Of a stretch of DNA of 64,000 nucleotides, positions 6,681 to 28,089 are shown one piece after another. Both the position numbers and the translations under genes were made by a program. The notes beneath the pieces are model-generated. The model was not told where the DNA came from and made no database searches. It saw nothing but the letters and a program-made list of their open reading frames with translations. The stretch is from the NCBI RefSeq assembly GCF_000264455.2, contig NC_017956.1:3702001-3766000 (forward strand), read 5' to 3'. Positions within the stretch are counted from its first letter, which is position 1. Each line of letters begins with the position of its first letter. Origin of the DNA: Tistrella mobilis KA081020-065. Lineage in GTDB: Bacteria; Pseudomonadota; Alphaproteobacteria; Tistrellales; Tistrellaceae.

Positions 6681-7534
6681 TTCGCCACCACCCGAAAGGC
6701 GGTGGCGACGCCCCCTGCCAGCCCCAGCCGTTCGAAAACCGCCGCACAATCGGCATCGTCGGGCGCGCTCATGCAACCCACCGCCCCGCCCTGGTCGCGC
6801 GCAAGGTCGGTGGCGGCGAACAGCACCGCCAGATCCAGCACCACCTGCGCGCGGGCGGGATCGAACGCTGCGGTCACCACGCCCGGCCGGTTGGGCCGGT
6901 CGCAGCTGACGATCTCGCCGGTGACCGGATTGCCGGTGCAGCCGGTGGCGCCCAGATGCAGGAACCAGGTGCCGGCGCGGCCGCCATCCGGCCGTGCCAC
7001 CCCGCCCTCGGGCACAAGTTCCAGCTTCACGTATTTGCGCCCCGCCTGCCATCCCCAGCCCATCGCCGCCAGGTCCAGCGGCGGCGGCGCCAGATCGGTG
7101 GCGGTATGGTTCAGCCGCTGTGGCACGCCCAGGGTGAAGGCCAACCGCCAGGGGCCGGCCCCGGCCCCGTCATCCACCCGGCCCGTGACGCGGGTATTGG
7201 TCTCAGATGTGCCCTCGCGGCATGCGCCGGTGGCGTCTTCGGCATCGATCAGGGCGACGCCGTCATGCTGCCAGAGCGTTTCGTCCAGCATGACCGGCCA
7301 GGCTTTGCCGGCCGCATCGATCAGGGCCAGGTCGTGGACATAGAAGCGGCCATCGCGCAGGCCGGCTGCAACCGCAGGCAGCCCCAGCGCCGCGGCAGGG
7401 GCGGCGCAGCCGACCGCCACCGCCCCGGCAACGATGCCGAAGCCGATGGTGACGCTCCGCTCCGCCGCCAGGACAGGCCCGGCGGCAAGCAGAAGCAGAA
7501 GGGTGGCGAGGCGGGTAAGGCGGCAGATCATCAT
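6677..7534 (-). CDS. mbnP: Periplasmic copper-binding protein MbnP
   Basis: 285 residues with a signal sequence (RLATLLLLLAAGPVLAA) and six Cys in the mature part (about 43, 105, 199, 211, 254, 263), matching the four-Cys metallo-mystery-pair/MbnP family. Known MbnP binds copper with a kynurenine made by MbnH from Trp; the segment MGWGWQAGRKYVKLEL (Trp 160 and 162) is the likely modified site. It sits between the TonB receptor gene and mbnH and overlaps mbnH by 4 bp. Likely role: handling copper delivered by methanobactin in the periplasm. Confidence 0.88.
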   Translation of the reverse strand: MMICRLTRLATLLLLLAAGPVLAAERSVTIGFGIVAGAVAVGCAAPAAALGLPAVAAGLRDGRFYVHDLALIDAAGKAWPVMLDETLWQHDGVALIDAEDATGACREGTSETNTRVTGRVDDGAGAGPWRLAFTLGVPQRLNHTATDLAPPPLDLAAMGWGWQAGRKYVKLELVPEGGVARPDGGRAGTWFLHLGATGCTGNPVTGEIVSCDRPNRPGVVTAAFDPARAQVVLDLAVLFAATDLARDQGGAVGCMSAPDDADCAAVFERLGLAGGVATAFRVVAK

Positions 7535-7547
7535 CGGCCCCTCCGCC

Positions 7548-9626
7548 TCAGAACCGTGCCGTCAGGCGCAGATTGACGCTGCGGCCTTCTTCATAGGCAT
7601 AGGTCTCGGCCAGCGACTGGCGATAGGTGACATAGGCCTCGTCGAAGAGGTTGGTCACCGCTACGTCCAGCCGGTACCAGTCGCGATCGAAGGCCACCCC
7701 CAGATCATGCACCGCATAGCCGCTGCGCCGGCGGAGCGGGGTCGAGTCGTAATCCTGGGCCGCCGCATAGATGCCGGCATACCAGACCCGCCAGTCCTGG
7801 TTCACCGCATAGCCGATCCCGGCCGCGACCTTGTCCGGCGGCGCATAGAGCTGGGCGCCGGTATCGGCATCCTTGGACCGCAGCTTCGAATAGGCGAGCG
7901 AGACATCGACGGGTCCCGCCTGATAGCTGGCCTCGGCCTCGATGCCGCGGCGTTTCGCTTCGGCGACGTTGCGGCGCTGGAAGATCAACCCGGTGCCGGA
8001 AAAGGGCGCTGTGCGGGTGAAGGTGCCGACCACCTGGCTGTCGATCAGATCGTCGACCCGTTCATGGAACACGGTCGCCTTGAAGCGCAGCGCATCGCCC
8101 GGCAAGGCCAGATCGTCGAAGGCGAGGGTGAAACCGGCTTCGGTGGTATGCGCGGTCTCAGGCTGAAGTTCCGGGTTGGGGATGAAGTTGAACAGCGCCC
8201 GGGTGGCGGTCAGGTTCGGATACATCTCGGCCAGGGTCGGCGCGCGGAAGGCCTCGCCATAGCCGACGAACAGGCCCAGCACCGGGGTTGCCTGCCAGTG
8301 CAGCGCCACCTTGGGCGACAGCCGGTCATGGGACGAGGATGCCTGGCCTTCCGGGTCGATTTCATAGCGGTCGTGCCGCAGGGCCCCGATCAGGGTCCAG
8401 TCCTCGAAGATCGTCAGCTCGTCCTGGATGAAGACACCGGTGGCGGTCAGATCGCCATCCGGCAGCACCACATTCGTCGAGCCCGCCGTGCGGTTGGTGT
8501 TGGTGTCGACATAATGGTCGACGCCATAGGTCAGCTTATGCGCCAGCGCCGCCCCGGTCTCGAACCGGCTGGTGTTCTGAAGCGACAGGCCGCGGGTCTC
8601 GGTCTCGGTCGAGGTGGCGTCGAGTGGCGGGTTTTCACGGCTCGTCGTGTCGAAACGCAGTTTCGTGTAATAGAGCTGCAGGCTGCCGTCCAGCCAGCTG
8701 CGATCCGGGTCGGCGAAGGACCAGCGGCCGGAATACTGGTCCTGGCGACGCTCCAGCAGCTGCGCATAGGGGAAGAGGGCGCTGCCGCCGGGATTGTTCG
8801 GCCCGGTCAGATCATCGTCGAAACGCTGATACGAGATGTCGATCCGATGGTCGGGGCCAAGGTCGAGCCCGCCCTTGAACAGACCCGAGAGCAGATCGCC
8901 CTCGTTCTCCAGCTTGTCACCGGTGCCGGTGCGGATGTTGTCGGTGCTGCGATAGGTCAGCGCCGCCAGCAGGTCGCCATCCGTCGTGCGGGTCGTGCCG
9001 GCCACATGGCTTGAAAAGGCGTGATTGCCGCTCCGCCAGCCCAGGCTCGCCCGGCCGCCGGTGGTTTCCCCCGGCGCCAGAAGATCCTCGGGCTCCAGGG
9101 TGCGGATCGCCATCACGCCGCCCAACCCGCCGCTGCCATAGCTGGCGGAAACCGGGCCGCGCACCACGTCGATGGCGCCGATCATGTCGGGATCGATCAG
9201 CAGCGGCGAGAACACGCCGCCCTCGTTGTTCCGCCGCACCCCGTCGACCGACAGGATGATCCGCGGGCCGATGAAGCCGCGGATCGACGGGTTCTGCGCC
9301 GCAGGGCGCGGGCCGCCGCCCATGTCGACATTGGGCAGGCGGCGCAGGATGGTGAGGTCAGCCGCCTGGGCATCATCCAGCGCCGTGCGGTCGATCTGGC
9401 TGACGGAGGCCGGCAGATCGAAGGCCGAGGCTTCGGTGCGGGTGGCGGTGACGGTGATCGCCTCAAGCCGGCTGATCGGGGCGGATTTTGCTTCCGCTCC
9501 GGGGGCGTCGGTCTCTTCGGCATGGGCAGGAACGGGCTGGACGGTGATGCCCAGCAGAAGGGTGGCGGCGGCGGTGCCGGCAAGCGGCAGCCGGCCGCGC
9601 AGCACGGATGCGGCGGGTCGGGTCAT
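7548..9626 (-). CDS. mbnT: TonB-dependent receptor, probable methanobactin-copper importer
   Basis: About 692 residues with a signal sequence (AATLLLGITVQPVPAHAEE), a plug domain (ITVTATRTE, then NPSIRGFIGPRIILSVDGVR and GSGGLGGVMAI) and a beta-barrel ending in the outer-membrane signature SVNLRLTARF. I chose the ATG at 9626 because upstream in-frame residues are Pro/Arg-rich and precede the signal peptide. The gene is 13 bp upstream of mbnP on the same strand, so it probably imports copper-loaded methanobactin. It also resembles the haemoglobin/transferrin receptor group, so the substrate assignment is contextual and the symbol is tentative. Confidence 0.8.
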   Translation of the reverse strand: MTRPAASVLRGRLPLAGTAAATLLLGITVQPVPAHAEETDAPGAEAKSAPISRLEAITVTATRTEASAFDLPASVSQIDRTALDDAQAADLTILRRLPNVDMGGGPRPAAQNPSIRGFIGPRIILSVDGVRRNNEGGVFSPLLIDPDMIGAIDVVRGPVSASYGSGGLGGVMAIRTLEPEDLLAPGETTGGRASLGWRSGNHAFSSHVAGTTRTTDGDLLAALTYRSTDNIRTGTGDKLENEGDLLSGLFKGGLDLGPDHRIDISYQRFDDDLTGPNNPGGSALFPYAQLLERRQDQYSGRWSFADPDRSWLDGSLQLYYTKLRFDTTSRENPPLDATSTETETRGLSLQNTSRFETGAALAHKLTYGVDHYVDTNTNRTAGSTNVVLPDGDLTATGVFIQDELTIFEDWTLIGALRHDRYEIDPEGQASSSHDRLSPKVALHWQATPVLGLFVGYGEAFRAPTLAEMYPNLTATRALFNFIPNPELQPETAHTTEAGFTLAFDDLALPGDALRFKATVFHERVDDLIDSQVVGTFTRTAPFSGTGLIFQRRNVAEAKRRGIEAEASYQAGPVDVSLAYSKLRSKDADTGAQLYAPPDKVAAGIGYAVNQDWRVWYAGIYAAAQDYDSTPLRRRSGYAVHDLGVAFDRDWYRLDVAVTNLFDEAYVTYRQSLAETYAYEEGRSVNLRLTARF

Positions 9627-9761
9627 GGGGTGCGGATCCGAAAGCGGGCGGGCAGCCGGCGGCCCGGGCGCGGATGGACGCGCAGCCAGGGGCCTGCCGG
9701 ACCGGACGCCCCGTCCAGCCACCGGGCAGGTGGCCGACAGGGGCAGCTCTTGAAGGTCGGA

Positions 9762-10214
9762 TCAGGCCCCGATCGGGGGTGCCCTGGCCTTAAGGGTGGC
9801 CAGATACCAGCCGGCCGCGATCAGCCCGCCGGGAAGAGGGGGGGCATCGTGGAGCCGCACCAGCCTGGGGGCAGGCGCCATGATCGGCAGCGGTGGCGTG
9901 GAACTGCCCTGCACCAGCAGGCAGAGCGGGCAATCATCGGCCGAAGGCAGCGCCTGATCGGGCCGGCCATCGGCATCCGTGTCTGCGGGCCAGTCGTCCC
10001 CGACCTGATCGGCCAGAACCAGCCGCACGCCTTCGGCGGTGCAGATCGGCGTCAGCAGCCCGAAGGCCATGGCCGGGGCATAGACCGACCAGATCATCAT
10101 CTGGAACAGGAAGGCGAGCGCGCCCGTGAGCAGCCCCGCCCGGCGCAGCCGCTCCCGAAGCCGACCGCGCGGCCCCGTGCTCCGATGAGGATATGACACC
10201 CGGCGATGCTGCAT
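9762..10214 (-). CDS. Small membrane-anchored DUF2946-like protein
   Basis: 150 residues: an Arg-rich N-terminus, one hydrophobic helix (about 27-52), an acidic linker, a CPLC motif at about 95-98 and a second hydrophobic patch near 128-142. The CPLC pattern and layout resemble DUF2946 proteins, which often sit beside copper-linked TonB receptors. It is the first gene in the series leading to the mbn receptor, 135 bp upstream of it. A metal-binding accessory role is inferred only; no catalytic motif is visible. Confidence 0.6.
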   Translation of the reverse strand: MQHRRVSYPHRSTGPRGRLRERLRRAGLLTGALAFLFQMMIWSVYAPAMAFGLLTPICTAEGVRLVLADQVGDDWPADTDADGRPDQALPSADDCPLCLLVQGSSTPPLPIMAPAPRLVRLHDAPPLPGGLIAAGWYLATLKARAPPIGA

Positions 10215-10291
10215 CCGATGACGCTACACCGGCTCGCGTCCTGCGCACAGGGCTTTTGCATCATGCGACCCATCGTCGCAGATGGCGCCCC

Positions 10292-10816
10292 TCAGGTGGG
10301 CAGGCCCAGGCGGATGCGCATGGCGGTTTCAGAGACCTCCAGCCGGGCCGCCAGATCGCGGATCTCCGTCACGCCCTCGCTGTTGAGTGCCCGGATCAAC
10401 GGCCAGGGCATCAGCAGCTGCGCCGCGAAACGGTTGGCCTCGGTTTCGATCGCCCCTGAGAGATGGCTGCGATAGAAGGCATCATCCTGAACACCCCCTG
10501 TGGCGACGTCTCGATGCAGCAGGAAATGCGCGATTTCATGGGCAATGGTGAAACGGCGGCGGACTTTGACATGCCGCGCATTGACCACGATCGCCCAGCC
10601 CGAGGGGCCGCCCCGTTCGGCATCCCGCACCAGCTTGCCCGAAAGCGACTCCGGCAAGGGCTCGGTCCAGACCCGCAGCCCAAGATCCCGTGCCAGCGCA
10701 ACGATCTTGACCGGTGCCGACTGTTGATGGCGGGACACGACGTCGGGCACCGCCACGTCCGCAGTGACCGGCGCATCCAAGGCGGCAGGCCACTCCCGCA
10801 CGGCATCTTCAATCAT
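10292..10816 (-). CDS. ImmA/IrrE family metallo-endopeptidase
   Basis: 174 residues from the ATG at 10816. The zinc-protease motif HEIAHFLLH is unmistakable, with the downstream acidic segment ETEANRFAAQLLMP giving the third ligand. The C-terminus holds a helix-turn-helix-like stretch (AARLEVSETAMRIRLGL). Family members cleave repressors of mobile elements or stress regulators. The gene overlaps the preceding small membrane-protein gene by 8 bp, forming a two-gene unit. No XRE repressor partner lies directly beside it, so its target is unknown. The window has no prophage genes nearby. Confidence 0.82.
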   Translation of the reverse strand: MIEDAVREWPAALDAPVTADVAVPDVVSRHQQSAPVKIVALARDLGLRVWTEPLPESLSGKLVRDAERGGPSGWAIVVNARHVKVRRRFTIAHEIAHFLLHRDVATGGVQDDAFYRSHLSGAIETEANRFAAQLLMPWPLIRALNSEGVTEIRDLAARLEVSETAMRIRLGLPT

Positions 10817-11156
10817 CCGACGTGGTCTCCTGAGGTCCGGGCGCGCCCGGTCTCTGTTCTTCTGCGGCAACGACATTGGCCGAGGCAACCCCCGCGATTC
10901 CGCGGTCGATCAGAGCCGCCATGCGCGCCTGGAATTCGGGACCGTCAAGATAGGCCCTGACGGCGCTGCCCAGGCCCTTCTCGGCAACCATCTCCGCCTG
11001 GCGTGCCGCCTTGCGAGTAATATAGGTGGCACCGAACAGCGCCACCGCCCCAAGCACGATGGTCGCCGCGGTCATGACGATGGTGGCGGTCTCCACCGAA
11101 CTGAACTGGGGTGCATTGCGCAGAACGGCGTCGGCAGCCGCCTCGATCGAGTCCAA
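10809..11156 (-). CDS. Small single-pass membrane protein of unknown function
   Basis: 115 residues with one clear transmembrane segment (about TIVMTAATIVLGAVALFGA, residues 25-43), followed by a basic helix and an acidic, Gln/Pro-rich tail. I do not recognise a family. It is encoded just upstream of, and overlapping by 8 bp, the ImmA/IrrE peptidase gene, so the two are probably co-translated. It may tether or be a substrate of that peptidase; this is inference from context only. Confidence 0.6.
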   Translation of the reverse strand: MDSIEAAADAVLRNAPQFSSVETATIVMTAATIVLGAVALFGATYITRKAARQAEMVAEKGLGSAVRAYLDGPEFQARMAALIDRGIAGVASANVVAAEEQRPGAPGPQETTSDD

Positions 11157-11280
11157 GCTCGCCTCCCCCTCAGGATCTACGAGAGCGCAGTTTCCGTGAA
11201 CAGGTCGAGAACATCAAGTTCATTCGATGATATTCAACTGTAAGATTTAAATTTTTGTTTATCAAATAATTGGAGAGAGG

Positions 11281-12267
11281 CTATGCCGCCGACGGCGTGC
11301 TCCGCACCGCCCCCGGCGACTGCCCCGTCACCCGCTTGAACGCCCGGCTGAATGCCGCCTGCGAGGCATAGCCCAGCCGGTCGGCGACGATGTCGATCGG
11401 CAGCCGGTCGCGGCCGATCCAGCGGGTGGCGAGGCGCATGCGCAGGCCGGCCAGATAGCGCAGCGGCGTGGTGCCGGTGGCGGCCAGGAAGCGTTCGGCG
11501 AAGACCGAGCGCGAGGCGCCGGCAAGGCCGGCCAGCTCCGCCACCGTCCAGTCGCGGCCGGGGTCGCGATGCAGGGCCGCCAGCGCCCGGCCCAGGCGCG
11601 GATCGCGCAGCGCCTGCACCCAGCCCGAGGCTTCGCCGCAGCCGTTCTCCACCCAGCCGCGCAGGATCGAGGCCGCAACCACATCGGCCAGCCGCGCCAG
11701 GATCGCGGCAAAGCCGGCGCGTTCGGCGCAGGCCTCGCGCTCCATCGCCTCCAGCATCGGCAGGATTTCGGGCGTGCGGTCGATCAGGGTGGCGACCGAC
11801 ATCACCTCGGGCATCAACGCGACCAGCGGCTGCATGCCGCCCAGATCGAAGCTCATGCAGCCGCTGAACACCACGGCACCGGTCATGGGGCAGCACTCTG
11901 CATCGCAGGCGCGCACCGCCTCCACCTGCGCACAGAGCGTCCGGGCGGCGAAATCGTCGAGATCCTGTCCGGGCTGGCCGGGATCGGAGAGCAGAGCATG
12001 GATGCCGCCGCGGGGCAGCAGGGCCGCATCGCCGGGCCCCAGCCGCAGCAGCTCGCCCGAGGGGCTTTGCAGGAAGACCTCGCCGCGGGCGACGAAATGG
12101 AACTGCGCCCGCCCTTCTTCGCGGCCGCCATCCTCGGAGAGGTCTTTCTCCGGCGGCCCGAACCGCACCCCGCGCGGAGGGGCAATCTGGATCCGCCGAT
12201 AGCGGATGCCGTCGAGCCGCATGCCCATCAGCAGCTCGCTCATCGGGTCGGACAGAGGTTCGGCCAT
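11281..12267 (-). CDS. AraC-family regulator with cupin sensor domain
   Basis: 328 residues. The N-terminal half is a cupin-like domain (FHFVARGEVFLQSPSG, GPGDAALLPRGGIH) of the type found in AraC regulators beside transporters. The C-terminal about 100 residues are the double helix-turn-helix AraC DNA-binding domain, with the classic second-helix sequence DIVADRLGYASQAAFSRAFKR. It diverges from an MFS transporter gene across 135 bp, the normal layout for a regulator controlling a neighbouring efflux gene. The inducer is unknown. Several Cys in the sensor half (CDAECC) might sense metals or thiols, which is speculative. Confidence 0.88.
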   Translation of the reverse strand: MAEPLSDPMSELLMGMRLDGIRYRRIQIAPPRGVRFGPPEKDLSEDGGREEGRAQFHFVARGEVFLQSPSGELLRLGPGDAALLPRGGIHALLSDPGQPGQDLDDFAARTLCAQVEAVRACDAECCPMTGAVVFSGCMSFDLGGMQPLVALMPEVMSVATLIDRTPEILPMLEAMEREACAERAGFAAILARLADVVAASILRGWVENGCGEASGWVQALRDPRLGRALAALHRDPGRDWTVAELAGLAGASRSVFAERFLAATGTTPLRYLAGLRMRLATRWIGRDRLPIDIVADRLGYASQAAFSRAFKRVTGQSPGAVRSTPSAA

Positions 12268-18908: not shown

Positions 18909-20192
18909 TCAACCGCCCGCTGCGGCCGTCTCCGGGGCCGGTACGGTCGACGGATCGATGGCGAGCGGCAGCAGCACGGCATAGCTGCCGCGTTCCTTCA
19001 TCCGCCCGGCGACCAGCTCCGCGAAATCGCCCGGACCCCAGAACACATCGCCGCGCACCGCCCCCTTGATCGCGCCGCCGGTATCCTGCGCGATCATCAG
19101 CCGCCGGAGCGGCGTTTCCGAAAGCGCGCCGACACCTGCCGGATAGCTGGCATCCAACCAGACCGGCGCCCCCAGCGGCAGCATCGACCGGTCGACCGCC
19201 AGCGACCGGCCCGGGCTCAGCACCGCGCCCATGGCGCCCAGCGGCCCGTCATCGTCCAGAAGCCGGAAGAACACATAGGACGGGTTCTGATCCAGGATCG
19301 AGACCATCCGGTCGGGATGGGCGGCCAGCCAGGTGCGCAGGCTCTGCAGCGACACCTCTTCGGGCTTCATCTCACCCTGATCGATCAGCACCTTGCCGAT
19401 CGAGCGATAGGGCCGGCCATTGGCCCCGGCATAGCCCACTCGCAGCACCCGTCCGTCGGGCAGCCGAACCCGGCCCGAGCCCTGGATCTGCAGGAAGAAG
19501 GCATCGACCGGGTCGTCGACCCAGAGCAGTTCCAGCCCGCGGCCGTCGAGCACGCCGTCGGCGATCGCCGCGCGGTCGTAATAGGGGGCAAACCGCCCGT
19601 CCGCCACCCGCCCGACCAGACGGCGACCGTCCAGCGCATCGTCGAAGGCGCCCAGATCCGCCACCACCAGATCCTCGGGCAGGCGGTAGAGCGGCACGTC
19701 GTGCCGGGTGTCGGGGGTCAGCGATCCGGCCAGTTCCGGCTCGTAATAGCCGGTGAACAAGCCGTTGGTGTCGCCATCGGGCTTCGCCACCTGCCAGGCG
19801 TTGAAATGGCGCTCGAAGAAGGCACGGGCCGCGCCGGCATCGTCCAGCGGCAGATCCACCGCGGCCCCGCAGACATCGCGCCAATGGCCGACGGTGCCGA
19901 AGCGCCCGCCGCGGTCGAGCGGCGCCGCCACCGGCCGGCGCAGGATGATCCGGCACGAGATCTGGAAAGCGCCGAGTGCAGCCGACTGGTCGTCGTCGTC
20001 CCAGCCGGGCAGGTCGCCGAAGGCGATGCGGGTGAAGCGCGGCCCCTCGGCGGTCACCGCCGGCTGCGGGGCCGGCGGCGTCTCGGGTGCCGGCAGGTTG
20101 CGTGTGCTGAGATACCAGCCACCGATCAGCGCCGCCCCGGCCAGCGCGAGCACGGCAAAGGCGGCCGCAAGGCGCAGAGACCGCCTGCTCAT
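18909..20192 (-). CDS. mltA: Membrane-bound lytic murein transglycosylase A
   Basis: 427 residues with an N-terminal hydrophobic anchor (AAAFAVLALAGAALIGGWYL). FTGYYEPELAGS marks the MltA domain, AFFLQIQGSGRV the active-site region, and the C-terminal 3D domain shows AQDTGGAIKGAVRGDVFWG with the catalytic Asp. It cleaves peptidoglycan glycan strands to 1,6-anhydromuramyl products in the periplasm. In alphaproteobacteria it normally follows the tim44-like gene; here about 7.9 kb of biosynthetic genes separate them. Confidence 0.92.
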   Translation of the reverse strand: MSRRSLRLAAAFAVLALAGAALIGGWYLSTRNLPAPETPPAPQPAVTAEGPRFTRIAFGDLPGWDDDDQSAALGAFQISCRIILRRPVAAPLDRGGRFGTVGHWRDVCGAAVDLPLDDAGAARAFFERHFNAWQVAKPDGDTNGLFTGYYEPELAGSLTPDTRHDVPLYRLPEDLVVADLGAFDDALDGRRLVGRVADGRFAPYYDRAAIADGVLDGRGLELLWVDDPVDAFFLQIQGSGRVRLPDGRVLRVGYAGANGRPYRSIGKVLIDQGEMKPEEVSLQSLRTWLAAHPDRMVSILDQNPSYVFFRLLDDDGPLGAMGAVLSPGRSLAVDRSMLPLGAPVWLDASYPAGVGALSETPLRRLMIAQDTGGAIKGAVRGDVFWGPGDFAELVAGRMKERGSYAVLLPLAIDPSTVPAPETAAAGG

Positions 20193-20259
20193 GCACGGCT
20201 CTCCGGTCCGCGACTTTCCCGCCTGATCGGCCTTCGCATATGGTCAGCGGGATCGGTCC

Positions 20260-21432
20260 TCATCTGCTGGCACTCTCCGAAGGGTTCGCAATGATCTGGA
20301 CGGGCAGGGCGGACGGTTCATGCAGCAGCCAGGCCTCTCGCCACCGGATCGGACCGGCCGTGCACAACCGGTCCATCAGCGGCGCTCCCGCCACAAGCAG
20401 GGCTGCAATCTCGAGACGGGCAAGCGGTGCGCCCAGGCAGTGGAACGCTCCCCGGCCAAAGGCGAGATGCGGAACCCGGGAGCCGAGCGGACAGGATGTT
20501 CCGACGTCACCCACGATCGCAGGATCCCGGTCGGCGATCGAGGTCATGAGATAGACCACCGCATCCTTTGGCAAGAGGATAGTCCCGTCCGCCCCGTCGC
20601 TCAGATGGAACGGTCTGAGCAGACGACGTCGCACCCCCAGTACCGGCGTATCCAGCCGGACCAGTTCGTCCACCAGTACCATGTGGTTCTCCGGGTCGGA
20701 TGGCAGCGCAATTCCATCCCGCAGCCGGCGGACCAGGATATTGGCGATACAGCCGGCTGTGGTCGTCGTACCGGTGACGAGCAGCTTGCTGCAGATGTCG
20801 GCGAGGGCGGCATCATCAAGCCCGTCCGCGGTGCCGGTCTCCAGAATTGTTGCCAGCAGCGGTGTTGCACCACCTTTCCGGGCAGCGGCCAGACGCTGGC
20901 GGAAATAGGCATCCAGCATGGTCTTTGCCGGACCGACAGAGGCGGACTGTCCCGTCCAGCCGGGGTCGTAACCGCTCAGGATCCGACCCGCCATGGTTTC
21001 AAGCACCGGCACATCGGCCGGCGGGATGCCCAGCAGATCACGCATCACCGCCATCGGAACCCGATCGGCGAAATCCCGGACCAGATCTGCCGTGCCCTCG
21101 CGGACCAGCCGCGCCGTCAGATCATCGACCACGCCCTGGACTGCCGGCATGACGTCAGCATCGGACAGCCGGGACACCCAGCTTCGCAGACGCCGGACCA
21201 GACCGCGATGACGGTCGCCGCCAGCGGTATCGAAGGCATTGAAGCTGGCCGTACTGCCGGGCTCGGCAAGCAGCACCGACAGAATATCCGCGTGCCGCGC
21301 GACCAGCCAGACATCCCCGCCCGTCGTCCTGATCGGCGGCGTATTGCGCAAGGCCGATAGAACCGGATGAGGGTCGGCTGCGTACTCAGCCCCCGGTGGC
21401 AGAACTCCGAAAGCCGATGCAATGTCGATCAT
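20260..21432 (-). CDS. Cytochrome P450, last gene of the peptide cluster
   Basis: 390 residues, a normal length for a soluble bacterial P450. The haem-binding loop FGRGAFHCLG places the proximal Cys at about 332, and ELVR at about 256-259 is the ExxR pair. The I-helix is unusual: TGTTTTAG at about 220-227 lacks the usual acidic residue before the Thr, so proton delivery may differ or be substrate-assisted. It overlaps the toroid-protein gene by 4 bp, so it belongs to the same operon and probably oxidises the product of that pathway. It needs ferredoxin and reductase from elsewhere. It ends 68 bp before mltA. Confidence 0.88.
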   Translation of the reverse strand: MIDIASAFGVLPPGAEYAADPHPVLSALRNTPPIRTTGGDVWLVARHADILSVLLAEPGSTASFNAFDTAGGDRHRGLVRRLRSWVSRLSDADVMPAVQGVVDDLTARLVREGTADLVRDFADRVPMAVMRDLLGIPPADVPVLETMAGRILSGYDPGWTGQSASVGPAKTMLDAYFRQRLAAARKGGATPLLATILETGTADGLDDAALADICSKLLVTGTTTTAGCIANILVRRLRDGIALPSDPENHMVLVDELVRLDTPVLGVRRRLLRPFHLSDGADGTILLPKDAVVYLMTSIADRDPAIVGDVGTSCPLGSRVPHLAFGRGAFHCLGAPLARLEIAALLVAGAPLMDRLCTAGPIRWREAWLLHEPSALPVQIIANPSESASR

Positions 21433-23420
21433 GAGCCGGCCCCCTTCTGCAACCCGCGCAGGGCCACCAGGGCGGAAAGCGCCGTCGCCGTGGTGAAGCT
21501 GCGTCCATGGTCGGATGCACGAACCAGATTGCCTGCCGCATTGGGAATGTCGAGCACGGCCGACGACGGCCAGCTGCCGTCAACCTGTTGGCCGGCAAGC
21601 AATGCCTCCGCCCCTGCCCCTCTGTCCCGGGCCAGAACCCGGATCCTCAGCGCAAGCGCTTGGCCGAAACTGGTATCGACCGGATGACGCGCTGCGCGCG
21701 CAGCGGCAGCCGCGATCCGGCGATCATCCCCGCTCGCAGCCCGTCCGCGTCGTCCGGCCAGAACCAGTGCCTCCACCGCCTGATCGGTGGCATAGCCTTC
21801 CTCCAGCCACCAATAACCCGGAAAGACGCCGTCCGGGCGCTGATGTCGGCGCAACCACTCTGCCGGGGCATCGCCGATGGTCGACAGACAGGCCGTGGCC
21901 GCAGTGACACAGCCATGTGCCGCGGTCCATCCGGCATTGATCACGCGCCCCTCCGACGCCCGGGCATGGTCCTCTGCCAGATAGGTCACAACCCCGCCAT
22001 CGGCACCAACATGCCGACGCAGGAAAGCCAGGCCTGCGGCGAAGCCGGGCTCGCTCTGCCGGCCAAGGGCCTCGCCGAGACGCAGCGCCCAGGCCGTGCT
22101 GTCGGCATCTGCCGGCTCCACGCCATTCCATCCCCAGCCCGGTCGCCCGGCGGTGCGGGCCGCCAGAAGCCGCCATGCCCGGGCGGCCGCTGCCAGAGCT
22201 GCCGGGTCACCCGTCTCAACCAGGGCATGGCCGACCCGGGCCGTGACCCATTCCTCTGCGACGCCTTCGCCAAACCCGCGATAGTCGAGCCACCAGCCCG
22301 CCTGCACGCGGGCATCGAGCAGAAAGCGGATGGCTGCCTCGATCGCCTCATCCAGACGCCGGGGCGTCTCGGGAACCGCAGGTGGTGCAGCCCGAACGAC
22401 ATCCGGAGCCGTCGCCTCCAGCACGCCCATATACGCCTTGACCGCACCATCGGCGAACCCGCCATGGCTGACCTTGAGATGACTGAACCGGCAATCGAGC
22501 CAGGCCGTCCGCCCGTGGACGATGTCGTCGAGGATCAGCGAGGCGGGCCAGGGGCGGGTTGCGGTGGTGGGTATCACGGCACCCGGCCATTCCAGAACCG
22601 AGGCGCGCGCCGCCGGGGTGCACCGACCGGCCTGGACCAGATGGTCGAGCATCCGCCGCCAGCGCCGATCGAACACCTCCGGGGGGCCGAGAAAACATTC
22701 GAGACCCAGCTCCGGCTCAGCGCCGCCATCCCCGATGGTCATCGCCAGTCGGATGCGGTCGACATAGACGAACAGGGCGTCGACCCGGTCCTGCAGGGCC
22801 CTGGCGTCGCCCACCCAGCCGGCCCGCCCGGCCTGACCTGCGATGTCATCCGGATCCAGATCGTCGAAGATCAGACGGAAGGGCGCGCCCGGCCGGTCGA
22901 GCATCAGACCCAGGAAGGCGAGCCGCCCCGTGCCCCGACGGGCGGCAAGACACCGGCGAAGAGCCGCCTCCCGCATCGACGGCAGCGGCAGTCCGAAGCC
23001 TGCGATGACGCTCTGCACCGTCTCCAGGGCGGCACTGCCGCCGGCCGCCCCGGCCAGTCGGACAAAGACCGAGAGCGCCGGCGGATCGGCGCCGTCATCG
23101 AGTTCCAGCCAGATCTCCTCGATCCGGTCCAGCCCGGGGCCGTCACAGAACCGGGCGAGCGCGGCAAACCCGGATCCACTAGCGGTTATCTCCGCCATCC
23201 AGCTGCAAAGCCGATCAAACTCGGGTCCTGGCCGAACCCGCTGCTGAAGATCGACCACCGTTGGATCGGCAAGCCGGATTTCGAGCCCGGCGGCCGGCAC
23301 CGCAGGCAGATGGCGTGCCAGCCGAAGGACTGCTTCGGGCATGTGCAGGCCACGCTCAGCCGCCACGAACTCCAGAATCGGTGCCAGTGCCGGCAGCCGA
23401 CCGACGTCAGCTTCGATCAT
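21429..23420 (-). CDS. Two-domain protein with squalene-cyclase-like toroid
   Basis: 663 residues. The C-terminal half (about 350-663) is an alpha-alpha toroid like squalene-hopene cyclase/prenyltransferase-beta proteins: QQVDGSW at about 611-617 is a QW repeat and HQRPDGVFP at 526-534 a degenerate one. At 438-442 the sequence DADST replaces the DxDD(T) motif of class II terpene cyclases, keeping two acids but losing the fourth. The N-terminal half (about 1-345) has alternating beta-strand/helix segments (LSVFVRLAG, DALFVYVDRIRLAMTIG, VKAYMGV) and no family I recognise with confidence. It overlaps its neighbours by 4 bp on both sides. It may act on a terpenoid or prenyl group, or merely bind a substrate; function unknown. 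Confidence 0.65.
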   Translation of the reverse strand: MIEADVGRLPALAPILEFVAAERGLHMPEAVLRLARHLPAVPAAGLEIRLADPTVVDLQQRVRPGPEFDRLCSWMAEITASGSGFAALARFCDGPGLDRIEEIWLELDDGADPPALSVFVRLAGAAGGSAALETVQSVIAGFGLPLPSMREAALRRCLAARRGTGRLAFLGLMLDRPGAPFRLIFDDLDPDDIAGQAGRAGWVGDARALQDRVDALFVYVDRIRLAMTIGDGGAEPELGLECFLGPPEVFDRRWRRMLDHLVQAGRCTPAARASVLEWPGAVIPTTATRPWPASLILDDIVHGRTAWLDCRFSHLKVSHGGFADGAVKAYMGVLEATAPDVVRAAPPAVPETPRRLDEAIEAAIRFLLDARVQAGWWLDYRGFGEGVAEEWVTARVGHALVETGDPAALAAAARAWRLLAARTAGRPGWGWNGVEPADADSTAWALRLGEALGRQSEPGFAAGLAFLRRHVGADGGVVTYLAEDHARASEGRVINAGWTAAHGCVTAATACLSTIGDAPAEWLRRHQRPDGVFPGYWWLEEGYATDQAVEALVLAGRRGRAASGDDRRIAAAAARAARHPVDTSFGQALALRIRVLARDRGAGAEALLAGQQVDGSWPSSAVLDIPNAAGNLVRASDHGRSFTTATALSALVALRGLQKGAGS

Positions 23421-24331
23421 CCGCCGATCTCCTCTGCCAGCCGCAGAAGCCCGTCCCAGCCGGGCTCCACCCGATGCACGGTCAACGGCAGATGTTCAGC
23501 CAGCCGGGCGAAACGTGCCATGATTTCCGTGGTCATGAAGCTCCGGCAAATTGCCGGATGCCACATGTTGATCAGCAGGTGCAGGCGCCGGACCGGGTCC
23601 GGCCGGTACATATCCCCGGTCTGCCGGGTCAGGAGATGAATCTCATCGAGTGCCAGTTCCGCCTTATCGGCCGGATCGACGGAGGGGGCCTGCCACCACC
23701 ACTTGCCCGTCGAGGGTAGCGGCGCCAGCCCCTCGGTACCCGTGGGGAGAAACCGTCGGGCCGTCTCTTCGGTAAGCCGCAAACCGGCCGTTCCGGGCAG
23801 GAAACACACCTGTGGCCCGGTACGGCTGATTGCGATCAGATCATCGGCCGCAACCAGCCCTCCGCGGGCGACCAGTGCGGCGGCCAGGGTGGATTTGCCG
23901 GCACCTGTGGCTCCCATGAAACAATGGGTGCGGCCGCGCATGACGACCGCGGCCGCATGAAGACAAAGCAGGCCGCGCCGGAAGAGCAGAATCCCCATCG
24001 GGTCACCGACCAGCGCTCCGGGCACGGAGGGCAATCTGCCCGGACGGCAGATCACGTCGATACGATCGCCCTGATCCTGGATCAGAAACATCATTTCGCC
24101 TGGCCAGCCGTAGATCGTCGCCGTATCCGTGCGACCGGCCACCGGCGCCCCCGGGAGAGCGGGGGCCGGCAATCGGCCCGGACTCAGCGCCGGTTCCGCA
24201 GTTTCGGGATGCCAGCCGATGACGACATCACAGGGCCCGTCACCGGTGGGGGCCTGGCTGCCGGGCAGATCGAAAGGCGTCTCGATCATCAGTCCGAACA
24301 AATGGCGGCGGCGGTACGGTTCCAGCATCAC
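23417..24331 (-). CDS. HPr kinase-related peptide kinase
   Basis: 304 residues. Walker A GATGAGKST at about 140-148, preceded by LCLHAAAVVMRG and followed by ARGGLVAADDL, fits the HprK-related kinases found in lasso-peptide clusters. In the paeninodin system such a kinase phosphorylates the C-terminal Ser of the precursor, and the precursor here also ends in Ser. It overlaps the asparagine-synthetase homologue gene and the toroid gene by 4 bp each. It is not a PTS regulator: the HPr(Ser) kinase N-terminal domain is not evident and no pts genes are near. Confidence 0.82.
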   Translation of the reverse strand: MMLEPYRRRHLFGLMIETPFDLPGSQAPTGDGPCDVVIGWHPETAEPALSPGRLPAPALPGAPVAGRTDTATIYGWPGEMMFLIQDQGDRIDVICRPGRLPSVPGALVGDPMGILLFRRGLLCLHAAAVVMRGRTHCFMGATGAGKSTLAAALVARGGLVAADDLIAISRTGPQVCFLPGTAGLRLTEETARRFLPTGTEGLAPLPSTGKWWWQAPSVDPADKAELALDEIHLLTRQTGDMYRPDPVRRLHLLINMWHPAICRSFMTTEIMARFARLAEHLPLTVHRVEPGWDGLLRLAEEIGG

Positions 24332-26229
24332 ACGTCACCTCTGCCGGACCGGGCCTCCCGGTCCAGGAACCGGCAGACGAGGGTACCGGTCATGACGGTA
24401 TCGAACATTGCCGGGGTCCAACCCTCCCTTCCGGAGGGCCGGACGGCACGAACTGCGGCAAGATAGCGGTCGCGATCGATCCACGCCCAGCACGCCGGAT
24501 GCGCCGTCTCGGCCCAGGCCTCGAGCGCACCGGCATAGCGGGCGAGGCGGGCGGCCAGGACAGGATCGAATGCCGGCCCCTTGTCCCGCCTCCACCGGAT
24601 CTCGTCGGGGAGGATCCCGGCCATCGCCCGGCGGTAGAGGCTTCGCTCCCAGCCGCCACGCCGGAGTTCCGCAGCCGGAACCGACATCATCAGCGACAGA
24701 AGCCGCTGGTCGAGCATGGGCAGGCGCAGATCGACGCCGTGAAGCCGGGCGGATATGCCCACAACATCCGATGCCGGATGATCCACCCGGCCGGGGACGA
24801 GCGCGACGCGCATCAGGTCCTGAGGTCCCATCTGCAGAAAACGCCGCCCTCGCCGCCGCAGGCGCCGCCAGTCCCCGGCCGAAAGCGCGTCCCGGCGCAA
24901 TGGCAGGGTCTCGGTCGAAATCGGTCGAAGTCCCGCCGGCAGCAACGGCGCGACAACCTCCCGCCGGAGCAGGGTAGACCAGGGAACACCCTGCACGCGA
25001 TGCAGATCGGCAAGATCCTGGACAGCCTCGCGGAGGCGTCCCTGCCGCAACAGCGCCGCAGCCGTCTGCCGTCCGGAATGGGACACGAAGAGGTCGCCCG
25101 CAAACCCGTTGAGCAGAACGTCGACGCCCTGTGCCGCCGCGGCTGCGCCAAGTGCGAGAACCCCGTGGGAAAGGGGAACAAAAGGCAGCCTGCCGAGCAG
25201 GTCCAGCACGCGGTCGAGCTCGGCGAAGGGATCATCATCAGGGACCATCTCGATGCGAAGCAGATCGATATTGTCCGCCGCCTCGGCCACCCTGAGAACA
25301 TAAGGCCATTCATCGCGTTCCGGCCCCTGGTGATCAAGGGGGAGGACGGCCGAGATGGCCAGAAGCCGCTTGCCCCGGCGCCGAAGGCGCTTTGCCGCAA
25401 TGAGAGCAATGGCAGAAGAATCCAGCCCGCCGCTCAGCAGCACCGCCGGTCGTTCCGCATCGTCGATCCGGTCATGGATGGCGACAATCAGCCGTTGACG
25501 CAGTTCGCCGGCCCAGGGATCCGGGCTTGTCATGTCGGCGGGCCGGACCGGTGTCCAGCGGCGGAGGTGCCGCAGATCGGGTGGGGCGGTATCCGGGTGT
25601 GGCTTTCCGGTATCGATGACCAGGCATTCGCCGGGTAGAATCGTCCGCACTGCAGCGTGGCAGGTCGCAGACGGCGCCCGTCGGTCCTGCCGCACAAGCT
25701 GGTCGGTGATCACCGTCCGGTCGAGTCTGGCCGGAATCCGCGGCAGGGCCGTCAACAGCCGGAAATCGGTGGAGAAGGCGATCAATCCGCCCCGGGCGAC
25801 CAGATAGAGCGGCAGTACACCCACCACATCCCGCAAAAGTGCCAAATGCCGGCCATCCCAGATGGCAGCGACATAGTCACCTGTCAGGCCGGCCAGAGCC
25901 TCGGCACCGCCGGCCCGCCAGGCCGATCGTACGAGGTCTGCGCCGTGCCGCCGTTGCGCGCCCCCCGGCATATTCCCGGCGAGGCGTCCGTTGAACAGGA
26001 TCAGCGGCGCGGCGGGTGACGGGGTATCAGGTACTCCTGAACCGTCGTCCGGTCGGGGCCCAGCCGGTCGGGTATATACGGGCCAGCTTGCAAACACGGC
26101 ACGCGGACCGCCATCAACCATCAGACGATGGCAGACGGTCCCTGTGCCGACGCGCTGGTCCAGCGTCCGCAGCCAGTCAGCGGGAAGGATGCTGTCTGGT
26201 CCCGCAAGCAGGCCGGCAAAGTCCCGCAT
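24328..26229 (-). CDS. Asparagine synthetase-like lasso cyclase homologue
   Basis: 633 residues with an N-terminal glutaminase-like domain (FNGRLAGN, GDYVAAIWDG) and a C-terminal synthetase domain whose pyrophosphate loop is SGGLDSS at about 266-272. The second residue is Arg, not the catalytic Cys of true AsnB, so ammonia release from glutamine is not expected. This is the pattern of lasso cyclases (protein C), which adenylate an Asp/Glu side chain for macrolactam formation. Its ATG overlaps the stop of the PqqD-like gene by one base (TGATG). It belongs to an operon with a lasso-type leader peptide. Confidence 0.85.
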   Translation of the reverse strand: MRDFAGLLAGPDSILPADWLRTLDQRVGTGTVCHRLMVDGGPRAVFASWPVYTRPAGPRPDDGSGVPDTPSPAAPLILFNGRLAGNMPGGAQRRHGADLVRSAWRAGGAEALAGLTGDYVAAIWDGRHLALLRDVVGVLPLYLVARGGLIAFSTDFRLLTALPRIPARLDRTVITDQLVRQDRRAPSATCHAAVRTILPGECLVIDTGKPHPDTAPPDLRHLRRWTPVRPADMTSPDPWAGELRQRLIVAIHDRIDDAERPAVLLSGGLDSSAIALIAAKRLRRRGKRLLAISAVLPLDHQGPERDEWPYVLRVAEAADNIDLLRIEMVPDDDPFAELDRVLDLLGRLPFVPLSHGVLALGAAAAAQGVDVLLNGFAGDLFVSHSGRQTAAALLRQGRLREAVQDLADLHRVQGVPWSTLLRREVVAPLLPAGLRPISTETLPLRRDALSAGDWRRLRRRGRRFLQMGPQDLMRVALVPGRVDHPASDVVGISARLHGVDLRLPMLDQRLLSLMMSVPAAELRRGGWERSLYRRAMAGILPDEIRWRRDKGPAFDPVLAARLARYAGALEAWAETAHPACWAWIDRDRYLAAVRAVRPSGREGWTPAMFDTVMTGTLVCRFLDREARSGRGDV

Positions 26230-26504
26230 CAGTCTCCGCCGTCAGCGAGGAGACCGGCTGCCTGCAGGCTGTCGATGAACCGCCTGACATCTGTTTCACA
26301 GGCAGCACGCTCCACATCGAAGCCGGCCATCACATGCTCGACGATCTGCGACAAGCTGCGCGGCTCATCGATATAGCGCCAGATAGCGCCGCCGACGCCA
26401 CGTACCTCATAATACTGACCAGATGCCATATCGAGCACAGCCACCTGGCCATCCAGATCTGACCACACGGCATCAGGGCGGCGAAAGATCAAGTCTTCAG
26501 TCAT
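26229..26504 (-). CDS. PqqD-like RiPP recognition protein (lasso B1-like)
   Basis: 91 residues from the ATG at 26504; an earlier in-frame Met at 26561 would run back into the precursor gene. The pattern VAVLDMASGQYYEVRGVGG, then IWRYIDEPRS and the C-terminal DVRRFIDSLQAAGLL, is the PqqD/B1 fold that binds RiPP leader peptides. In lasso clusters B1 delivers the precursor to protease B2 and cyclase C. Here it lies between the precursor and the cyclase homologue gene, but B2 is missing. GGAG occurs about 11 bases upstream. Confidence 0.87.
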   Translation of the reverse strand: MTEDLIFRRPDAVWSDLDGQVAVLDMASGQYYEVRGVGGAIWRYIDEPRSLSQIVEHVMAGFDVERAACETDVRRFIDSLQAAGLLADGGD

Positions 26505-26541
26505 CGAATGCTCGACTCCAGGCCGGCTACGATGGAAAATA

Positions 26542-26685
26542 TCAGGAATAGTTATTGTCACTGCCCGGGCCGCTGCCGCCGGAATTCGTCAAGTCACCAA
26601 CATTACCCACCAGAACGAGTTCCGGTGCCTCATACCGCGCCCGCTCGTCCTGCTCGTCCATCTTCGCCGGCTTGTATTCGATCAT
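26542..26685 (-). CDS. Lasso-type RiPP precursor peptide
   Basis: A 47-residue peptide starting MIEYKPAK at the ATG at 26685, with GGAG 8 bases upstream. Y18-x2-P21-x-L23-x3-G27-x5-T33 matches the lasso leader motif YxxPxLxxxGxxxxxT. If Thr is at position -2, the core is SGGSGPGSDNNYS: 13 residues, Gly/Ser-rich, with a single Asp at core position 9 able to close a nine-membered ring and a Ser at the C-terminus. If the core begins at Gly36, the ring would be eight. It is the first gene of the operon. Further Met codons upstream (to 26754) were rejected because they lack a ribosome site and precede the leader motif. Confidence 0.82.
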   Translation of the reverse strand: MIEYKPAKMDEQDERARYEAPELVLVGNVGDLTNSGGSGPGSDNNYS

Positions 26686-26796
26686 ATTTTCACTCCAATC
26701 AGAGCCTGGATATTTTGCTCGTGAAAAGATACTAAAAAGACTCATGGATAGCAACTGACAGATGGATGATCCCGATGATCACGAGGAGGTGAATAC
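26686..26796. promoter_or_regulatory. Divergent intergenic region between precursor and Nif11-like gene
   Basis: 111 bp, clearly more AT-rich than neighbouring DNA, separating two divergent small-peptide genes. It should contain both promoters. GAGGAGGTGA at the right edge is a strong Shine-Dalgarno for the rightward gene. No operator dyad or -35/-10 pair is convincing by eye. Confidence 0.5.
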
Positions 26797-27039
26797 ATGG
26801 ATCAACAATACCGGGCCGCGCTTGGCTTTCTGCGGTTGGCACGAGATCAACCCGAAATCAGAGCGCAAGTCTCATTGATCTCCCAAAAGAACGACGCACT
26901 AAAACCTCTGGTCGCTCTGGCCTTCAGCCTTGGTTATGAAACCGATGCCGTAGCCCTTGCCCGTGCCTGGCAGCAGGATTGGACATTGCGCCGCCTGCAC
27001 AGTCACGCCCGCTCAAAATCTCCGGTCAGTGACAGCTAA
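26797..27039 (+). CDS. Nif11-like small protein
   Basis: 80 residues. The body ([20 protein letters not shown], then [20 protein letters not shown]) follows the Nif11 leader-domain pattern: a helix, D-P/E-L-R, then a helix with a G-Y/F turn. It has a near-perfect ribosome site (AGGAGGTG). It lacks Cys and lacks a Gly-Gly cleavage site with a following core, so it is not an obvious lanthipeptide-type precursor. It diverges from the lasso-type precursor and its end overlaps the convergent P450 pseudogene by 14 bp. It could be a second precursor, an immunity or helper protein, or a leftover leader. Confidence 0.62.
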
Positions 27040-28089
27040 GGGTAAGTCGCGCCTGTTCCCGCAGGAGCCGGACAGAGGTCCAGATCGGGGGATGGGTCCG
27101 GCGCAGACGGTGCAGATGCGGCAGGATCCGCAGGATCAGTGCCCGGGTCTCCAGCCTGGCCAGGTGCGCGCCCAGGCAGAAGGTGTTGCCATGGCCGAAG
27201 GACAGATGCGGATTTGGGGATCGCACGGGATCGAAGACATCCGGATCGGAAAAACGTTCCGGGTCACGATTTGCGTGATCGAACATCAGATGCAGCACTG
27301 ACCCCGCGGGAATACCGGTCTCTCCGATCACGACATCCGCCGCCGCGACCCGGCCGGTACCGCGCACCGGCCCTTCCAGACGCAGACACTCCTCGACCAT
27401 CGTGCCGAGAATCGCCGGCTCAGCCGCCAGCCTGGCCGCCACATCCGGACGATCCACCAGAAGGGCCACGACATTCACCAGAAAATCGCGAATGGTCGTG
27501 CTGCCCGAATAGACCAGCATGGCAGCCCATCCGACGACCATCCGGCCGTCGTCGTTCCGGCCGGCGGCAATGTCGCGAACGGCCGCAGCAAGCGAACCTT
27601 CGGGTGCCGCGAGGACCCTCGGTGCCAGCCACCGGCCCATCGTCTGTTGGGCGAAACGACCGCGCATCCGGTCGGCCTCGGTCGGTGCCATGTCATGGCC
27701 GCGTGTGATGGCCGCCAGCAGGGGATGCAGATCCTCGAACCTCTCCCCGGCAATGCCCAATACCCGAAAGATGATGGTCAGCGCCAGGGGTGGGCAAGAT
27801 CGGCAACGACCTCCAGCTTGCCCCGGGCGGTGGCCCGTTCCAGTACGCCGTCGACAAAGGCGGATGCGACCTCTTCAAGTCCTGCGATCTCGCGGCTGGC
27901 GAGATGTTTCGTCAGCAGGCCCGTCAGATCGCTCATCCGCCGTGCACGACGTCCGGCCGCTTCACCGCCCGTCTCTGAGAGCGGCTTGCGCACCACCAGA
28001 TCGGGGTGTGCCAGTGCCGCCCGTACGTCGGCATACCGGGTAATGATAAAACTGCCTGCTTCGTCATCGAAAACCGGCAGTGCGGTCAT
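27026..28089 (-). pseudogene. Cytochrome P450, 5'-truncated and frameshifted
   Basis: Two reading frames together encode a P450. The upstream part (28089 to 27778, about 103 residues, SFIITRYADVRAALAHPDLV) hits a TGA; the downstream part carries I-helix SGSTTIRDF, ExxR in EECLRLEG and haem loop [10 protein letters not shown]. The frames join at the G-run 27787-27790: one more G there would restore [16 protein letters not shown], normal P450 sequence. The N-terminus also starts about 30-40 residues late for the family, and its ATG overlaps the tim44 stop (ATGA). So it looks truncated at the edge of inserted DNA as well as frameshifted. A sequencing error in the homopolymer could explain only the frameshift. 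Confidence 0.8.

Follow-up and report, generated by a model that had tools for sequence, protein, structure and literature searches.

What would a bacterium make with an operon that joins the genes of a lasso-type peptide to those of a terpene cyclase-like protein and a cytochrome P450? The question is raised by six minus-strand genes of Tistrella mobilis KA081020-065, at positions 20260-26685 of a 64,000-nucleotide stretch of contig NC_017956.1, here called the window (G000:C1:3702001-3766000 in a genome of 6,506,598 bases on five contigs; genomes are numbered G and loci L). Coordinates and spacings agree with the first-pass annotation, which had described six such genes, five of them joined by overlaps of 1-4 bp: a precursor peptide, PqqD-like, AsnB-like and HprK-like proteins, a 663-residue protein and a P450 are all present, spaced +37, -1, -4, -4 and -4 bp from precursor to P450. 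That annotation had also guessed that a small peptide undergoes cyclisation or phosphorylation, perhaps becomes attached to a prenyl or terpenoid part, and is oxidised, and this is supported by the prenyltransferase-like and MstE-like halves of the 663-residue protein and by the Tyr-(x)-Ser tails of the precursors, although the reactions themselves are predicted. In our view the operon probably yields a lasso-type macrolactam that bears a phosphate and is prenylated on its C-terminal Tyr, the prenyl chain being then cyclised and oxidised. The features on which this view rests are as follows.

26542-26685, minus strand: precursor peptide of 47 residues, MIEYKPAKMDEQDERAR-YEAPELVLVGNVGDLTN-SGGSGPGSDNNYS; lasso leader family NF033521 at E 3.8e-5, over the cut-off
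26584-26634, minus strand: leader recognition stretch YxxPxL...T(-2), positions -17 to -1, placed in register with published motif positions
26545-26583, minus strand: predicted core SGGSGPGSDNNYS, with Ser1, ring Asp9, predicted prenylation at Tyr12 and predicted phosphorylation at Ser13
26229-26504, minus strand: PqqD-like leader-binding protein of the lasso B1 type; PF05402 at 3.8e-17, over the cut-off
24328-26229, minus strand: AsnB-like protein, predicted macrolactam (isopeptide) synthetase; PF00733 (Asn_synthase) at 2.2e-32
23417-24331, minus strand: HprK-like kinase with invariant His125-Lys146-Asp163-Asp164; Hpr_kinase_C at 3.2e-5, under the cut-off, and predicted fold
21429-23420, minus strand: fused prenyltransferase-cyclase (PC) maturase of 663 residues, assigned from an AlphaFold2 model, Foldseek, hmmsearch and VIA
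22410-23420, minus strand: P domain, residues 1-337, ABBA barrel-like by model pattern and Foldseek; stand-alone copies exist
21432-22367, minus strand: C domain, residues 352-663, class II terpene cyclase of the MstE type (hmmsearch E 1.5e-83; VIA Z 39.2)
22095-22109, minus strand: DADST motif, residues 438-442, with Asp440 aligned to MstE Asp109
20260-21432, minus strand: cytochrome P450; PF00067 at 2.5e-5, just over the cut-off, and an FGxGxxxCLG heme-binding stretch recognised by eye

The 663-residue protein was modelled with AlphaFold2 on an eight-row alignment (mean predicted local distance difference test score, pLDDT, 85.4; predicted template modelling score, pTM, 0.87). The best Foldseek match of the model is MstE (2.5e-18), which VIA likewise aligns to model residues 354-658 with 33% identity over 299 residues, and the sequence profile matches MstE over positions 355-656, with the second Asp of DADST on Asp109 (MstE numbering fixed through the Y157F PDB entry). 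The protein thus carries a fused MstE-like cyclase domain with its general-acid Asp, and this motif, DxDST or DxDTT, is found in 11/11 full-length PC proteins checked, L011, split in frame, being outside the count. In the N-terminal half of the model a two-strand/two-helix pattern is repeated, and lower Foldseek matches, from 1.2e-4 to 3.2e-4, are the ABBA aromatic prenyltransferases NphB (Streptomyces CL190; 1.2e-4), AmbP1, DMATS1 and CloQ. An ABBA-type barrel is therefore indicated by both model and Foldseek search, for a P domain modelled within the whole protein; ABBA enzymes are absent from the VIA list of the 663-residue model, which is taken up by the cyclase half. Two other identities were rejected: a plain squalene-hopene cyclase, as Pfam SQHop_cyclase_C matches only at E 0.82 and the N-terminal half is a separate domain, and an unrelated helical toroid, as MstE has a Z of 39 compared to about 22 for the best sugar-epimerase-like rows. 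The squalene-cyclase-like toroid of the first-pass annotation consequently keeps its cyclase-type half, a relative of MstE, but is not a bare homologue, since that half belongs to a two-domain maturase.

The N-terminal half also exists as a gene of its own, found in a genome search with the eight-row profile that scored three candidates per genome, such that misses there are no proof of absence. In seven of the nine stand-alone-P loci fetched (L050-L056, L058 and L059), all but L051 and L053, there is a separate toroid gene. These loci carry NHLP-type precursors and, in most cases, exporters, recognised in L050-L059 by eye or text pattern, with a family search for the L054 toroid alone. This toroid has an NHLP leader domain fused at its N-terminus (TIGR03793 5.9e-12; 45.3 bits, slightly short of the 50.9 cut-off). 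As the P and C halves are fused in some genomes and encoded by nearby separate genes in others, we argue that they work together.

Such a fusion is not without precedent. NctPC is said to have been reported originally by Hubrich et al. in 2024, in work on isoprenoid RiPPs (ribosomally synthesised and post-translationally modified peptides). In the review description on which our comparison is based (PMC13290415), NctPC is a prenyltransferase-cyclase fusion which geranylgeranylates a Trp of a RiPP and then cyclises the chain. It resembles the window protein in having an ABBA prenyltransferase domain fused to an MstE-like cyclase and in acting, as predicted for the window protein, on a ribosomal peptide, and differs in that its reported acceptor is Trp, whereas the window protein belongs to a lasso-type cluster with AsnB and kinase genes and a Tyr-(x)-Ser tail.

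Is the association of this enzyme with lasso-type genes peculiar to the window? P domains in lasso-type surroundings were found at 13 loci (window, L008-L015, L048, L049, L081 and L082), whose contents were scored by homology or by eye. P is joined to a cyclase in 12 of the 13, in L011 across a frame break; L049, from the genus of the window, has it fused instead to an S-adenosylmethionine methyltransferase (8375-10216; Methyltransf_11 2.6e-19). PqqD is present in 12/13 (L009 ends at a contig edge), the kinase in 12/13 (in L082 by eye and in L011 only in part; the L015 match is weak and below the cut-off) and an AsnB-like protein in 9/13, with a fragment at the contig end of L081. Complete B2-PqqD-AsnB-kinase sets stand alongside the PC enzyme in L048 and L082. 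The first-pass annotation had made conservation of the toroid protein and P450 beside the leader gene its test, and the association withstands it: a leader-type precursor gene accompanies the P domain in 12/12 loci whose precursor region was present, and eight of the 13 clusters have at least one P450 (window, L008, L009, L010, L012, L014, L049 and L081). In the P-domain tree the window groups with L008, L009, L010 and L012 (support 100/99), a grouping across Sphingomonas and an Acidobacteriaceae metagenome-assembled genome that fits exchange between lineages. The sphingomonad-type clusters L008, L010 and L011 have an extra carbamoyltransferase-like gene and a JmjC-type oxygenase.

The window precursor conforms to the lasso leader, as had been noted at first pass. 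In addition to the NF033521 match, its Tyr -17, Pro -14, Leu -12 and Thr -2 are in the YxxPxL...T(-2) register given for lasso leaders in PMC10368454, and the YxxPxL spacing is the same in 9/12 precursors, differing in L013, L081 and L082. Asp9 of the predicted core fits the Asp or Glu at 7-9 of lasso rings, and recurs at position 9 in L008, L010, L011 and L048; of the other precursors with YxxPxL, that of L014 has Asp at 8, those of L012 and L049 have it at 10, and that of L015 has none. Asp9 is present in five of the six clusters that hold both a local AsnB and a YxxPxL precursor. A stricter rule, that clusters without AsnB lack a ring Asp, was dropped as too strong given Asp10 in L012 and Asp8 in L014, and a looser correlation remains. 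With only four residues after Asp9 threading is doubtful, and the product may be a lariat without it; we therefore write lasso-type rather than lasso peptide.

The enzymes that would handle this precursor are related to those of lasso pathways without reaching all curated cut-offs. The PqqD-like protein matches the lasso-specific NF033536 at 6.5e-20 and 71.1 bits, below the cut-off of 80, and for the AsnB-like protein the best NCBIfam match is the lasso cyclase NF033535, at 153.6 bits against a cut-off of 525. Four AsnB-like relatives tested, including those of the B2-bearing L048 and L082, also score below this cut-off, and no AsnB was seen in L012, L013, L014 or L015. Family searches (Pfam/NCBIfam) of the unit's proteins gave no match to a B2 leader peptidase, in agreement with the first-pass annotation, which had however taken this to be an unusual trait; B2 was seen locally in just 3/13 loci (L014, L048 and L082), a count in which L009-L011 and L081 are cut at contig ends and the L081 genome lies outside the B2 search. 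A PF13471 search of the T. mobilis genome gave one match, a B2 over the curated cut-off on another replicon (C3 of G000), and the conspecific G142 and congener G001 have one match each. Besides this one B2 the genome has nine AsnB-like matches (E 1e-20), perhaps with ordinary asparagine synthetases among them. PqqD-like matches number ten (E 1e-6) and kinase-like ones at least nine, a lower bound because nine candidates were scored. One B2 may serve several clusters, acting in trans.

These scores and absences leave room for a RiPP that is no lasso at all, in which the AsnB-like enzyme makes another amide or spares the core, leaving a prenylated phosphopeptide in linear form. Such a product would explain the four clusters in which AsnB was not seen and the ten without a visible local B2, as well as the cyclase scores and the short tail beyond Asp9. 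It does not sit easily with a leader register that is exactly that of lasso precursors, with the recurrence of Asp9 where AsnB and YxxPxL occur together, with the full gene sets of L048 and L082, or with the single B2 of the genome, and we regard it as unlikely.

In the kinase, His125, Lys146, Asp163 and Asp164 are common to 7/7 aligned homologues, and the predicted structure (pLDDT 90.0) matches PEPCK and HprK/P. In PMC9266682, His-Lys-Asp-Asp is the motif of lasso kinases that phosphorylate the C-terminal Ser of the precursor, and the window combines an HprK-like kinase bearing this motif with a precursor that ends in Ser, from which kinase activity on the peptide is predicted.

If the Ser belongs to the kinase, to which enzyme does the Tyr beside it belong? 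A Tyr-(x)-Ser end is found in 11/12 P-domain precursors, all but that of L015, compared to a Y-x-S end in 2/12 control precursors, taken from kinase clusters that have no P domain nearby (Fisher p 0.00064); counting L008, L010 and L011 once gives 9/10 versus 2/12 (p 0.0019). P-locus precursors were picked by eye and leader pattern, those of L048 and L082 partly by tail or position, which may favour the Y(x)S count. C-terminal Ser is present in 12/12 P-domain precursors and 11/12 controls, the latter picked by eye among small open reading frames (ORFs), where the final Ser may have biased the choice. Since Ser is about equally frequent with and without P, and Tyr is not, we tie Ser to the kinase and Tyr to the P domain. 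The controls derive from 20 stretches around related kinases without an intact local P domain, meaning within the 10-18 kb fetched, and comprise 12 precursors from ten loci, L135 and L137 contributing two rows each; nine other loci had no clear precursor. The P-domain search had also covered the genomes of six control loci, and G000 and G095 hold P-domain genes elsewhere. L120 (G142:C15:6000-25000), in which the P gene is in pieces, was left out; it is a decayed relative of the G001 cluster, with a broken kinase, P-domain fragments and a precursor end GSAYTS. The control locus L135 (G000:C4:1013000-1029000) has two lasso-type precursors, two PqqD, AsnB and kinase, with no P domain in the stretch, and its JmjC-type protein is related to that of L008.

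The tail could nevertheless be read differently, as a motif by which the kinase recognises the precursor; the PC enzyme would then prenylate and cyclise another residue, or a small molecule, joined to the peptide later or never. Two controls, L131 and L132, do end Y-x-S without a local P domain (G095, the genome of L132, has three PC genes elsewhere), and the L015 precursor has no Tyr despite its PC enzyme. Paeninodin also ends Y-x-S, and Tyr could in part serve the kinase. What makes this explanation quite unlikely is that the two sets differ in Tyr and hardly in Ser, that Tyr is retained with the P-methyltransferase fusion of L049, and that stand-alone P domains go with a C-terminal Trp or Tyr where homology search showed no kinase. 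In those loci 15/16 filtered NHLP-like precursors end in Trp and one in Tyr, counting P-domain loci alone. Similarly, the one distant match of a plasmid search, on Pseudanabaena plasmid pPg_03 (L149), is a homologue of the P domain (E 2e-7; 24.7% over residues 142-333) that is fused to a 2-oxoglutarate-Fe(II) oxygenase (8491-10284), is annotated as an oxygenase only, and lies near LanM and a Nif11 precursor whose last residue is Trp. L015 excepted, these precursors share an aromatic residue in the last or nearly last position. NHLP-like precursors ending AGLCCCW are found near a stand-alone P domain and toroid in L054, L056, L058 and L059, and L050 has eleven tandem NHLP-like precursors (6382-11893) of varied cores, all Trp-ending, around one stand-alone P gene.

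From these components we infer a set of reactions, in a probable order, that would lead to the terpenoid-bearing macrolactam. The PqqD protein would bind the YxxPxL...T(-2) leader, and the HprK-like kinase would phosphorylate the precursor, most likely on Ser13. The P domain would then place a prenyl group, probably C15-C20, on Tyr12, the sole aromatic residue of the predicted core. In the C domain Asp440 would protonate this chain for cyclisation, as MstE does on prenylated benzoates and NctPC is reported to do on a RiPP Trp, and a P450 would oxidise the terpenoid part. The leader would be removed by the single B2 encoded on the other replicon, and the AsnB-like enzyme would link Ser1 to Asp9.

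Several observations weigh against this pathway. The P-domain profile gave chance matches alone among PDB sequences (best E 0.09), and the fold match of the P domain to ABBA enzymes, taken from the model of the whole protein, is modest. A kinase of the same kind acting on Ser3, not on the C-terminal Ser, is reported in PMC10368454. To these are added the low scores and patchy occurrence of AsnB, the ring Asp at 8 or 10 in three relatives, the exceptions and the paeninodin end in the tail comparison, and the state of the genes next to the operon, which are listed here with the unit that contains them.

20178-28076, no strand: acquired unit between mltA and a tim44-like gene, delimited by alignment with G142 and G001
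26797-27039, plus strand: stand-alone Nif11-type protein of 80 residues with no evident core; Pfam 0.13 (weak), aligned with family A4
27026-28089, minus strand: second P450, with a frameshift around 27787-27790 that splits it; the two frames together match the L008, L009 and L012 orthologues

Window positions 20178-28076 are missing at the matching site in both G142 and G001, where the mltA and tim44-like flanks are only 11 bp apart. This 7.9-kb unit is an acquired insertion, and it takes in, beyond the operon, the second P450 and the Nif11-type gene that converges on it, neither of which was listed at first pass. In L008, L009 and L012 two P450s are accompanied by a methyltransferase, identified with Pfam in L008 and by eye in L009 and L012, a set the window may once have had. 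As its second P450 carries a frameshift and it lacks the methyltransferase found in its nearest relatives, the window copy may be decaying. The whole cluster could be a relic that makes no product, a reading also favoured by the evident breakage of a related cluster in G142. However, all six operon genes are open and adjoin or overlap each other, with the checked motifs kept, and a relic is decidedly unlikely.

Nif11 is a family of leaders, and the Nif11-type gene is a consistent companion. By alignment A4 and its profile a small gene of this type is present in all 13 clusters, although 13/13 is not an independent count, the profile having been made from ten of these 13. Its neighbour is the P-domain gene in nine clusters (L008, L010, L011, L013-L015, L048, L081 and L082) and a P450 in the other four (window, L009, L012 and L049). 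Pfam Nif11 is over its cut-off in two of ten small proteins (L010 2e-6, L049 1.7e-5), weak in four, including that of the window, and without a match in four (L009, L012, L015 and L081). The A4 profile added three members (L008, L011 and L014) and gave nothing in five NHLP-type loci (L050, L052, L054, L056 and L059); L012 and L015 belong to the profile yet were not recovered by the search, which covered ORFs of up to 200 residues from the first start only.

The constant presence of this gene, the NHLP domain on the L054 toroid and the Pseudanabaena P domain beside a Nif11 precursor together suggest a more specific possibility, that the stand-alone Nif11 protein is a coreless leader acting in trans, for a Nif11/NHLP-dependent PC enzyme, on a precursor with a lasso leader. 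Two leader systems would then come together on one peptide, and the clusters would form a distinct class of terpenoid lariat RiPPs in which Tyr replaces Trp as the terpenylated residue. The peptide prenyltransferase MppC, of a lanthipeptide system, offers a comparison: as described in PMC12715784 it too has a Nif11-type leader, which lies within the precursor and not, as in the window, in a separate gene, and which was needed in cis and failed in trans. This last result counts against a leader in trans, and we put the proposal forward only tentatively, as less probable than not.

How much of this is already described? To our knowledge no prenylated lasso peptide comes with a fused cyclase. Such peptides (Harris et al. 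2024, via PMC13290415) share with the proposed product a prenyl group on a lasso-type peptide, but their prenylation is given as leader-independent in PMC12715784. The phosphorylated lasso peptides of paeninodin/PadeK, ThcoK and SyanK have (PMC9266682) the same YxxPxL-T leader, PqqD, AsnB-like protein, kinase with His-Lys-Asp-Asp and C-terminal Ser; the window unit differs from them in having no local B2, and in its PC maturase, P450s, Nif11 protein and four-residue tail. MstE, the class II cyclase of merosterolic acid (PDB 6sbb-6sbg), has the fold of the C domain and its general-acid Asp, but is a single domain that acts on a prenylated benzoate, according to the PDB titles, whereas the C domain belongs to a peptide cluster and is fused to a prenyltransferase-like domain. 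None of the literature matches listed combines a prenyltransferase-cyclase fusion with lasso-type genes; these matches covered few subscription papers and did not include the original NctPC paper. The first-pass statement that no described family has this gene set therefore holds for the full set among those matches, and not for the enzyme architecture, which is that of NctPC as reviewed in PMC13290415. On this evidence what is new is a PC maturase in kinase-bearing lasso-type clusters, and Tyr in the place of Trp.

If this is correct, lasso-type peptides can bear cyclised terpenes, which are reported on Trp of other peptides in PMC13290415, and Tyr would be a second acceptor residue for peptide terpenylation. 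The P domain would be one element of a modular toolkit, combined with a cyclase in 12 clusters, with a methyltransferase in L049 or with an oxygenase in L149. The clusters would also bear on whether a leader peptide can become a separate adaptor protein, and on whether several clusters share one leader peptidase. A single cluster would unite two types of peptide chemistry for which separate accounts are the rule.

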